NCBI GenBank assembly: GCA_012522535.1
Contig: JAAYKF010000003.1
Coordinates: 1 to 37,569 of the forward strand
Direction: 5' to 3'
DNA from: Bacteroidales bacterium
GTDB taxonomy: Bacteria; Bacteroidota; Bacteroidia; Bacteroidales; WCHB1-69
DNA length: 37,569 nucleotides
Positions 1,456-30,602 of the stretch are shown here, piece after piece (the stretch's first letter is position 1; each line of letters starts with the position of its first letter). Under the pieces are notes generated by a model, which saw nothing but the letters and a program-made list of their open reading frames with translations, did no database searches and was not told the DNA's origin. The translations under genes were made by a program, and so were the position numbers.

Positions 1456-1629
1456 TCACGGAGGCACTTTAGGTGGTAATTTTTTATTTGCTTTTTTTCT
1501 TTTCATTTGGACTTTAAAGTTTTGTGCCTTTGCATAGTCCCAAAAATAAAAAAACGTGGGACAATTGCTTACTCGTAACCGAGGGAGTCCAAGCCCTGAA
1601 CAACAGAGTAAAGCAAAAGCCCACGCCAT
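1456..1629 (-). CDS. possible small protein (57 aa), perhaps a degenerate repeated ORF
   Basis: From ATG at 1629 to TGA at 1456 the minus strand reads 57 codons, starting MAWAFALLCCSG, then GLPRLRV, with a Lys-rich tail ending LPPKVPP. Past the TGA the same frame stays open through a segment containing GVQKPVKTGRYSKSH and continues in frame into the lipoprotein at 1350. The composition (Trp, Cys, Pro, Arg) is unlike the AT-driven neighbours. It may be a real small gene, a repeat-borne ORF interrupted by TGA, or a by-product of the inverted repeat that overlaps its 5' half. I see no Shine-Dalgarno sequence. Function unknown. Confidence 0.25.
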   Translation of the reverse strand: MAWAFALLCCSGLGLPRLRVSNCPTFFYFWDYAKAQNFKVQMKRKKANKKLPPKVPP

Positions 1630-1687
1630 AGCGTGAGCATTTAACTAAACTTCCCTGTTGTTCCCTAAATTTGGACTTTTCGGTTAC
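1575..1687. repeat. nested imperfect inverted repeat, about 113 nt, RNA-like fold
   Basis: Three stems stack in register: GTAACCGA (1575-1582) with 1680-1687; AGTCCAA (1586-1592) with 1671-1677; and GAACAACAG (1598-1606) with 1655-1663. Inside lies a hairpin CACGC-cata-GCGTG (1622-1635), flanked by one further GC pairing. The arrangement of small internal loops and a terminal hairpin resembles a structured RNA or a recombination-site-like stem-loop. It matches no family I can name, and the integron attC core sequences do not fit. Confidence 0.5.
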
Positions 1688-1787: not shown

Positions 1788-1841
1788 AACAAACTGCAAG
1801 TATATTTTAATAAAATTATTAAAATATACTTGCAGTTTGTT
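1788..1841. terminator. perfect 25-bp inverted repeat, possible terminator
   Basis: Arms 1788-1812 and 1817-1841 are perfectly complementary around a 4-nt loop (AAAT). The plus-strand 3' side runs into TTTTTG. It lies 56 bp beyond the stop of the minus-strand MORN-repeat gene, so it could end that transcript, although the minus-strand flank has no clean U-run. The stem is unusually long and unbroken for a terminator. Confidence 0.5.
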
Positions 1842-1896: not shown

Positions 1897-3423
1897 CTAA
1901 TCTTCCAAAGTTTCGGGCAATTCGGGAATAATTTTTGTGCTGTCGTAGCTTATTTCAACGCCTTTGCGATAGGTAACACGCAAAAACATTTCGCCACTTT
2001 CGTCAAAATATTGCCATACTCCATGCTTGCGACCAAGGATATATCTTCCCGACTCTTTTAATTTTCCATTAAACCAATACGATTTGTATGAACCATCGGG
2101 ATTGTCATCATTAAAAGTGGTTTCGTACGATTTATTTCCGTTTTTATAAGTTCCTTTCCAAGCTCCATTTCTTAAGCCTTCGAAATATTTTCCCTCTTCC
2201 ACAAAATCGCCATGCACTTCTGTCCAATTACCCTCTTGTTCATTATCTTGGTAAACTCCTTTCGACAAAACATTTCCATCTTCGTCATACTCCACAAACT
2301 CTCCCTCCAATTTTCCCAACTCATAGTTTGCTTCGCGAAGTGGCTTAGAATTTTCGTAATACCAAAACCATTCCCCTACTCTACGCCCCTGATTATCATA
2401 TGTTCCCTCTATTTCTAATTGTCCATTGGGTAAATAATATTTCCACTTTCCAACAGGTCTGGAATCCACATAATTTCCTTCTGCTTTTAAAACATTTCTC
2501 TTATATAGCTCTTTCCAAGGTCCCTGTTTTTTGCCATCTAAATCGATTATCCCAATTCCCAAAAGTTCACCCTCATAAAAGAGATAACTCTCTATAACTT
2601 CGCCTTTTGGCGAATATTCGCGTCTTACACCGTGAGGTTTTCCTTGGTAGTAAGTTTGAATTACCTTTTGACGACCATTTTTGTAATAGTCAACACGTGT
2701 TTCCAAAACTCTCGTCTCCTCAACACCCTCAACTATTTCGCCATTATTATATTTTTCTAAACTTATCAAATTGCCCTCTTCATCATAATATTTGAAAAAA
2801 CCATCTTTTTTATCATTCAAATAAAAACCCTCTTCCTTGAGAATATCATTGGCATAAAAAATCTTCCACAAACCTTGTTTAAATCCACTTTGATCTTTTC
2901 TATTTATATGTTCGCGGCGAAGAATATAACCTCTTTTATATTCTAAAATAGAAATTATTGTACCTTCGGAATCATACTCTTTTGCTATGCCCTCCTCCAC
3001 CCCATCAACAAAAGGAATTTCTTTTATTAGATGATTATCTTTATCGAAATGCTTTTCGTTTCCTTGTTTTAAATCATCTATAAAACTTTCTAAAATTCTA
3101 TCTCCATTGGGTTTAAAAGTGGTTTTAATTCCATCTTTTTTGTCGTTTTTATAATTCAACGACATATATAATTCACCTTCAGAATTGTAGAATTTCCACT
3201 CTCCATCCAAAAGTCCATCTTTTCTATTTCCCTCCGAAACCAAAACACCATTTTCGTTATAGCTTTTCCAGTAAGCATCTGGTTTTCCGTCTTTTAGATA
3301 ACCTTCACTGGATTTTACGCCATTGGCGTGATAAAAAATATTATAACCATTAGGATCTATGGTTTGGCATATTAGCGATAAACTTAGAAAAATGAATATA
3401 GACAGATTTAGAAGTTTTTTCAT
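1897..3423 (-). CDS. exported MORN-2 repeat protein (YwqK-like)
   Basis: 508 residues. A short signal peptide (residues 1-19, ending SLICQ) is followed by about fifteen repeats of the type YYxNGxLxxEGxYxxGKxxGxWKxY. These are MORN-variant (MORN_2 / YwqK-like) beta-hairpin units common in exported Bacteroidota proteins. Examples visible are YHANGVKSSEGYLKDGKPDAYW and YLPNGQLEIEGTYDN...GEWFWYYEN. No catalytic domain is visible, so it is probably a structural or envelope-associated scaffold. Some relatives are annotated as antitoxins, but nothing here supports that role. It starts 6 bp after the nadA stop, so the two genes are likely co-transcribed. Confidence 0.85.
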   Translation of the reverse strand: MKKLLNLSIFIFLSLSLICQTIDPNGYNIFYHANGVKSSEGYLKDGKPDAYWKSYNENGVLVSEGNRKDGLLDGEWKFYNSEGELYMSLNYKNDKKDGIKTTFKPNGDRILESFIDDLKQGNEKHFDKDNHLIKEIPFVDGVEEGIAKEYDSEGTIISILEYKRGYILRREHINRKDQSGFKQGLWKIFYANDILKEEGFYLNDKKDGFFKYYDEEGNLISLEKYNNGEIVEGVEETRVLETRVDYYKNGRQKVIQTYYQGKPHGVRREYSPKGEVIESYLFYEGELLGIGIIDLDGKKQGPWKELYKRNVLKAEGNYVDSRPVGKWKYYLPNGQLEIEGTYDNQGRRVGEWFWYYENSKPLREANYELGKLEGEFVEYDEDGNVLSKGVYQDNEQEGNWTEVHGDFVEEGKYFEGLRNGAWKGTYKNGNKSYETTFNDDNPDGSYKSYWFNGKLKESGRYILGRKHGVWQYFDESGEMFLRVTYRKGVEISYDSTKIIPELPETLED

Positions 3424-30333: not shown

Positions 30334-30435
30334 CACATCTATATTTTGTGTATATTTTGTGGTGAAAATTCCGAATAACAAGCTTTTGCTTTTTACTCAT
30401 TGCCTTTCACCCGAAAGCATTCAAGTTTTAAACTA

Positions 30436-30590
30436 CAAGCAGGTTTTCTGGCTTGTTCCAATTTAGGCACCTTCCCATTTTCACAAACAGTGGTTTATAG
30501 CCTAATTTTAGCAGAACTCACAGCTACGGGTATAGCTCTTGAATTTCACAAGATTCCCTTTCTTCTTTTGGAAGAATTACCTGTAATTTG
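30436..30590 (-). ncRNA. cobalamin riboswitch
   Basis: On the minus strand, upstream of the BtuB-like gene, the conserved parts occur in order: an AAAGGGAAT block near 30555, GAGCTATACCCGTAGCTGTGA (compare GAGCTGTCCCGCAACTGT), CCACTG and ATGGGAAGGTGCC, and the B12 box AAGCCAGAAAACCTGC (plus strand 30439-30454). A CTTTC-GGGT-GAAAG hairpin at 30404-30417 lies between aptamer and gene and may be part of the expression platform. Binding of adenosyl- or methylcobalamin is expected to reduce receptor expression. No T-run is seen, so control is likely at translation. Confidence 0.9.
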
Positions 30591-30594
30591 CCTG

Positions 30595-30602
30595 CAAAGA
30601 TA
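30595..30602 (-). promoter_or_regulatory. Bacteroidota -7 element for the riboswitch transcript
   Basis: On the minus strand TATCTTTG fits TAnnTTTG. Transcription would begin about 30588, just before the aptamer. No -33 TTTG is found at ideal spacing. Confidence 0.5.

Follow-up and report, generated by a model that had tools for sequence, protein, structure and literature searches.

A large family of leader RNAs in Bacteroidota with two predicted, mutually exclusive folds

RESULTS

A nested hairpin between two genes of a Bacteroidales genome

The window analyzed here is a stretch of 37,569 nucleotides, taken as a whole, from a Bacteroidales bacterium (assembly GCA_012522535.1, contig JAAYKF010000003.1). 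Close to one end of it, the gap between two genes on the minus strand, at 811 to 1350 and 1897 to 3423, holds a nested hairpin (Table 1). A sequence-only reading of this DNA had described stems of 8, 7, and 9 bp around a tetraloop hairpin at positions 1575 to 1687. Direct inspection of the letters found all three nested stems and the apical hairpin at that place, the middle stem consisting of 6 bp, or 7 bp with one neighbor included. Two flanking hairpins that the same reading had named, GTCCCA/TGGGAC (1537 to 1542 and 1557 to 1562) and GCGT/ACGC (1693 to 1705), exist as well and are designated P5 and P1, respectively. As had also been remarked, the gap is noncoding and less AT rich than its surroundings, with a GC content of 0.46 compared to 0.31 and 0.20 on its two sides. 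The suspicion that the layout is selected for folding was borne out; the region from 1560 to 1700 gave fold energies of −52.2 kcal/mol on the plus strand and −56.6 kcal/mol on the minus strand, and 0 of 200 dinucleotide shuffles folded as well (z = −6.64 and −5.64, respectively). The extent given in that reading holds for the stems, but the conserved unit is longer, 1551 to 1707, and it is the minus strand that matters. The lipoprotein-like gene and the gene that follows it are probably cotranscribed, since the gap between them is only 12 nt.

Table 1. Features of the window discussed in the text, with their coordinates
Feature	Position	Strand	Remarks
Next gene downstream	208-798	−	196-aa secreted-type protein; no Pfam match
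Downstream gene	811-1350	−	179-aa lipoprotein-like protein; no Pfam family
DUF805 RNA match (Rfam RF03081)	1372-1438	−	Full length, 50.9 bits (gathering 51.1); between element and start codon
P5 hairpin	1537-1562	−	Segment 3 (1557-1562) with segment 4 (1537-1542), GTCCCA/TGGGAC; U-run inside loop; in competition with 2:3 helix
Half B (3′), state II	1547-1626	−	Terminator-like hairpin ending at U-run
U-run	1548-1554	−	7 T on minus strand, directly 3′ of segment 3
Leader RNA element	1551-1707	−	Span of R1 covariance-model match; 98.8 bits, E = 4.9e-15 in whole own genome
Segment 3, GTCCCACG	1555-1562	−	3′ strand of terminator-like helix
Stem 1, state I	1575-1582 / 1680-1687	−	GTAACCGA (3′ arm) / TCGGTTAC (5′ arm); 8 bp
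Stem 2, state I	1587-1592 / 1671-1676	−	GTCCAA (3′ arm) / TTGGAC (5′ arm); 6 bp, 7 with one neighbor
Stem 3, state I	1598-1606 / 1655-1663	−	GAACAACAG (3′ arm) / CTGTTGTTC (5′ arm); 9 bp
Segment 2, GCGTGGGC	1619-1626	−	With segment 1 in state I, with segment 3 in state II
Apical hairpin	1622-1626 / 1631-1635		CACGC/GCGTG; loop of 4 nt
Half A (5′), state II	1627-1713	−	Hairpin; CTACCTG 1687-1693 paired near CAGGG in 1650-1657
Segment 1, GCTCACGC	1631-1638	−	Partner is segment 2 (apical hairpin, state I)
P1, 5′ local hairpin	1693-1705	−	GCGT/ACGC in window copy; consensus AAAGC-GTTA-GCTTT
20-bp hairpin	1793-1836		Terminator-like on both strands; separates upstream gene from leader
Cobalamin riboswitch	30421-30599	−	Elsewhere in the window; 93.2 bits

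Distribution of the element

A BLAST-style DNA search of the bacterium's own genome with the whole 361-nt region gave no second copy. A search of 99 relatives returned short matches to the apical hairpin only, and when the loci of those relatives were folded, the same three-stem architecture appeared with other stem sequences. Among 393 genomes from the order, the pattern GCTCACGC-N2-7-GCGTGGGC was present in 45, compared to one match for a control read backwards. Seventy-three copies were aligned with MAFFT to give a consensus, and a later alignment comprises 134 copies. The covariance model R1 detected two copies in the own genome, that of the window, which is itself among the 73 training sequences, and a second at 178 to 334 of contig C101 (E = 2.2e-21); the remaining copies were matched independently of the training. 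The second copy was accessible to the covariance model alone because the stems vary in sequence.

More than 200 copies occur in Bacteroidota, with up to 30 per genome, and 10 chosen genomes carried 3 to 30 each. Under stringent filters, a sample of the phylum yielded a match in 30 of 248 genomes, some of them from other orders or from lineages beyond the class; among the carriers are Paraprevotella clara, Flavobacterium cupreum, Chryseobacterium sp. FH2, Mucilaginibacter oryzae, and Belliella kenyensis. A negative control of 67 non-Bacteroidota loci bearing the apical pattern by chance produced no R1 match below an E value of 0.1. In Rfam, searched with gathering and E-value thresholds, no family matched 1551 to 1707, and the only hit nearby was to the DUF805 RNA. 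The nested hairpin belongs, as a single copy, to a large, unlisted RNA family without an Rfam match. Thus, the undescribed structured RNA suggested by the sequence-only reading is upheld by homologues, by base pairs kept through very many compensatory changes, and by the want of any Rfam family covering the element. A phage origin was rejected after two strict patterns gave no match in IMG/VR.

Covariation of the nested stems

The compensatory changes that the same reading had proposed seeking in the three stems were abundant. Stem sequences differ almost completely between copies while the pairing is retained, and in the consensus of 73 copies, 22 of the 30 predicted pairs showed double changes. 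We compared each pairing with its own and with swapped partners, the swaps being made either over all 134 copies or only within one genome. Over the 134 copies, this permutation gave z values of −40.5, −31.4, and −43.4 for stems 1, 2, and 3, respectively, and swaps confined to a genome still gave −14 to −17. The local hairpin P1 scored −7.8 over 134 copies and −3.2 within genomes; for P5, own versus swapped partners gave a z value of 9. By mutual information in the 134 copies, stems 1 and 2 rank first, followed by stem 3. The next pair, 112:164 (z = 8.3), links nucleotides that follow the apical hairpin with nucleotides that precede the U-run.

G-U pairs outnumber A-C combinations in the stems, 68 to 40, and an apical U-G wobble is retained in 119 of the 134 copies, which together argue for an RNA of the minus strand in the window. 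The apical hairpin was invariant among the 73 copies, in part because the search pattern selected for it, and later copies found by the model show compensated changes there.

A second fold

The 5′ half (A) and 3′ half (B) of the element are each predicted to fold alone into a hairpin, with energies of −18.7 and −29.7 kcal/mol, respectively, in the window copy. Folded in isolation, half A formed a linker:bulge helix in 128 of 134 copies, and half B formed a helix of segments 2 and 3 directly before the U-run in 133. The core columns of the latter, segment 2 (GCGTGGG) with segment 3 (TCCCACGC), are 95 to 100% paired across the 134 copies, with compensatory changes. Over the same alignment, permutation gave z values of −16 for the linker:bulge helix, −9.4 for the 2:3 core, and −13.8 for the 2:3 extension, and −5 to −6 remained when swaps were restricted to a genome; the segment 1:2 helix gave −12.3. 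Taken together with stems 1 to 3, these helices retained values of −5 to −17 under swaps within a genome. Compensatory types were seen at state II column pairs 36:76, 37:75, 39:73, and 133:142. The conserved GAAA, TTT, GGT, and ACC residues, which in the nested fold have the look of internal loops, pair in the second fold. Its terminator-like 2:3 hairpin is long, with interruptions. Nearly all copies have the U-run, and the nine nucleotides after segment 3 contain on average 7.4 T residues in the 134 copies, against a background of 2.8.

Stems 1 to 3 and the 2:3 helix presumably cannot coexist, because segment 3 directly follows stem 1. From the covariation and the spacing, the element is predicted to have two conserved, mutually exclusive folds: the nested hairpin (state I) and two separate hairpins (state II). 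As A and B are mutual inverted repeats, each fold depends in part on the other. In 123 of the 134 copies the nested fold has the lowest energy overall, and the mean advantage of state I over the two separate hairpins in that alignment is 13 kcal/mol.

Position relative to genes and promoters

In 127 of 130 copies the next open reading frame downstream lies on the same strand as the element, whereas those upstream are mixed, 84 to 43. A Bacteroidota −7 box, TAnnTTTG, was located in the 120 nt that precede the element in 107 of 155 copies (69%); shuffled sequence had it in 6.6%, and the opposite strand in 16 of 155. About 30% of the copies have none that was found, and the window copy has a near match only. 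Between the element and the ATG the box appears in 5 of 155 copies (3%), not above chance. A box that lies upstream and almost never between the element and the start codon places the element in the 5′ untranslated region. On this positional evidence, the predicted RNA is a 5′ leader, encoded by the minus strand in the window. The sequence-only reading had seen the P5 hairpin; it had missed the second fold, the promoter upstream, and the adjoining DUF805 RNA match.

The promoter data bear also on a different explanation, that back-to-back terminators insulate a gene that has its own promoter. As such an arrangement would have it, half B is terminator-like on one strand, and on the other the complement of A has a T-rich end. 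Nevertheless, it is highly unlikely, given the scarcity of boxes between element and gene, a gap of 35 nt or less in 21 of 155 copies, and an A-B complementarity that insulation would render needless.

Once the element is placed in a leader, it might instead act on translation or on RNA stability, its structure being protective or controlling ribosome access and the U-run serving as a linker rather than as part of a terminator. The element ends near the start codon (median distance to the ATG, 69 nt), and P5, which is clear in many copies but not in all, is located just before it. Upstream mini-ORFs of one or two codons (ATG-ACA-TAA, ATG-GAA-TAA, and ATG-TAA) are enriched, with 53 of 133 copies having one compared to 21 expected by shuffling, although a conserved GACATAA motif explains part of the excess. 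However, a leader of this type does not require a helix that abuts the U-run and is conserved with compensatory changes, nor a U-run that is itself conserved at 7.4 of 9 positions, and we judge it unlikely.

In copies outside the Bacteroidales, a small divergent gene starts approximately 116 to 177 nt upstream (loci L301 to L304, L306, L307, L309, L310, L146, L153, L260, L262 to L265, and L267 to L270). Several of these genes clearly encode XRE-type helix-turn-helix proteins, and the small proteins differ greatly between loci; the proteins encoded downstream there include SusC-like TonB receptors and sigma-factor-like proteins, among others. Two further loci, L298 and L308, have a transposase-like open reading frame, resembling IS1595 by eye, that is divergent and just upstream of the element.

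Divergence of copies

Copies within a genome share a mean identity of 46 to 70%, the best pairs reaching 0.90, and within genomes identity is lower in the stem columns (46%) than in the others (63%). An orthologous pair, L277 3359-3539 and L327 1501-1683, is 95% identical overall, and its three compensated double changes are confined to stem 2. This pair suggests that stem replacement is fast and blockwise, and stems may diversify in whole compensated blocks.

Structure that persists while stems vary is also a property of integron attC sites, in which a strand folds likewise. An element acting at the DNA level, whether a folded recombination site of the attC kind or a mobile repeat of the MITE or REP kind, would fit with this property and with copies that are numerous in a genome and stand in islands, sometimes in element-gene-element order. 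We consider it very improbable, since the orientation bias of 127:3, the upstream promoter, the U-run, and the excess of G-U over A-C point to RNA. The remark in the sequence-only reading that the layout matches no integron site it could name agrees with our search, in which 0 of 134 copies had RYYYAAC and GTTRRRY core sites (R″/R′) at both ends on either strand. No match to the integron integrase (TIGR02249) exceeded the cutoff in nine genomes, a result with which attC clusters lacking an integrase would be compatible. Gene cassettes were rejected as well, because element-gene-element runs exist, yet the upstream genes are of mixed orientation and attC features are absent. The same reading had offered a dispersed or MITE-like repeat of Bacteroidota; dispersed it is, but a recently spread MITE does not agree with copies so diverged (mean identity within genomes, 0.46 to 0.70), of which 127 of 130 point towards the next gene.

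Downstream genes and the DUF805 RNA

The genes downstream of the element share no obvious function. One hundred sixty downstream proteins fell into 103 similarity clusters, 78 of them single, and by a crude rule approximately 104 of the 160 begin with a signal peptide or a lipobox-like sequence. One sampled SusC-type protein is a TonB-dependent receptor, and an MmeI-type restriction-modification protein is also represented. A distant homologue of the window lipoprotein (27% identity), from a different family of the order, likewise has the element before its gene; a third homologue, in a genome of the bacterium's own family (G017), gave no R1 match.

The source of DUF805 in the literature is reportedly Weinberg 2017. 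DUF805 and DUF805b (RF03081 and RF02914; clan CL00115) are classed as cis-regulatory in Rfam and in several loci adjoin the nested element on its 3′ side; the DUF805 model describes 68 nt downstream, and the nested element lies outside it. Matches to DUF805 above the cutoff stand directly 3′ of the element at L213 3380-3445 (75.9 bits) and on the minus strand at L070 1319-1387 (79.2 bits), and matches to DUF805b just below the cutoff follow it at L123 5059-5094 and L240 3251-3287. This recurrence in several loci suggests that the Rfam motifs may be the 3′ modules of longer leaders. Locus L213 has a second DUF805 without an R1 match beside it.

DISCUSSION

Two exclusive folds, one of which resembles a transcription stop signal, make an on/off switch for the downstream genes probable. 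We think it likely, on grounds of structure and position, that the element is a 5′ leader of the two-state transcription attenuator type, with termination and read-through as its presumed outcomes. Counting against it are the length and interruptions of the 2:3 hairpin, the greater stability of state I, the partial dependence of the folds on each other, the copies in which P5 is not clear or no −7 box was found, and the lack of an obvious function common to the downstream genes. In state II, A and B would each close on themselves, and B would then have the layout of an intrinsic terminator, with a GC-capped hairpin and a U-run immediately behind it. State I would consist of A paired with B as the nested three-stem hairpin, and the terminator strand, segment 3, could close with a segment downstream in P5. 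State II would stop transcription before the gene, and state I would let RNA polymerase through. Half A would presumably fold first, the 1:2 hairpin, whose arms are adjacent, would then start the strand exchange, and state I would be built from the inside out. Since state I is the more stable by 13 kcal/mol on average, switching must be kinetic or driven by a factor; the outcome may be set by the speed of RNA polymerase or by a protein that stabilizes or opens A.

Attenuators of the trp type are likewise 5′ leaders that carry a U-run and in which the 1:2, 2:3, and 3:4 pairings exclude one another. Here, in contrast, the U-run is placed after segment 3, which would make 2:3 the terminator; moreover, the copies showed no leader peptide in common, and unrelated genes have this same leader in front of them. 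Riboswitches and other multicopy leader RNAs are comparable in being two-state 5′ leaders with many copies per genome, a phylum-wide range, and variable stems, but the element has no extensive set of residues that are both conserved and unpaired, as a ligand pocket would lead one to expect. Since almost all conserved residues are accounted for by the two folds, a factor or the transcription machinery is a likelier input than a small-molecule pocket.

NusG paralogues of the LoaP/UpxY type occur in Bacteroides, and the antitermination leaders associated with that type, known from Bacteroides-type genomes among others, likewise combine a leader signal with a downstream terminator. The element could be such a site of factor-dependent processive antitermination, in which the nested hairpin would serve as the loading signal and B would be the terminator that has to be overcome. 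That explanation overlaps with a two-state attenuator and differs from it in the purpose of the nested hairpin. It would account for an element common to many unrelated operons in one genome and for a transcribed leader with a terminator-like hairpin downstream. We hold it possible but doubtful, as two folds alone could suffice; the element differs from LoaP/UpxY-type leaders in that its leader hairpin pairs directly with the terminator strand.

A broader proposal can be made, though we lean somewhat against it: the copies, each with private compensated stems and all with the same two folds, could form a phylum-wide class of RNA switches through which one cellular signal or antitermination factor controls dozens of unrelated genes, mostly for surface proteins but also for defense. 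Few general RNA regulators are known in the Bacteroidota, although the phylum is dominant in the gut and in many soils and waters. If the leader is a switch, it would define an extensive regulon made up mainly of envelope and secreted proteins, with TonB receptors and a restriction-modification enzyme also included, that present Rfam-based annotation leaves unmarked. The covariation for two alternative folds of one RNA is unusually clear, and the mechanism is directly testable by paired mutations.

HMP2_4205, HMP2_1065, and HMP2_1032, Bacteroidetes candidate RNAs from comparative genomics, are described as palindromic and terminator-like (PMC8040213), and in those respects they resemble the element.

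Some loci have more than one element. A tandem pair precedes a single gene at L222 258-630 and L224 3003-3371, an arrangement kept in two related genomes. At L033 6727-8339, an island of two elements, each before a lipoprotein gene, lies between housekeeping genes, and a similar order is found on contigs G073:C295 and G230:C931.
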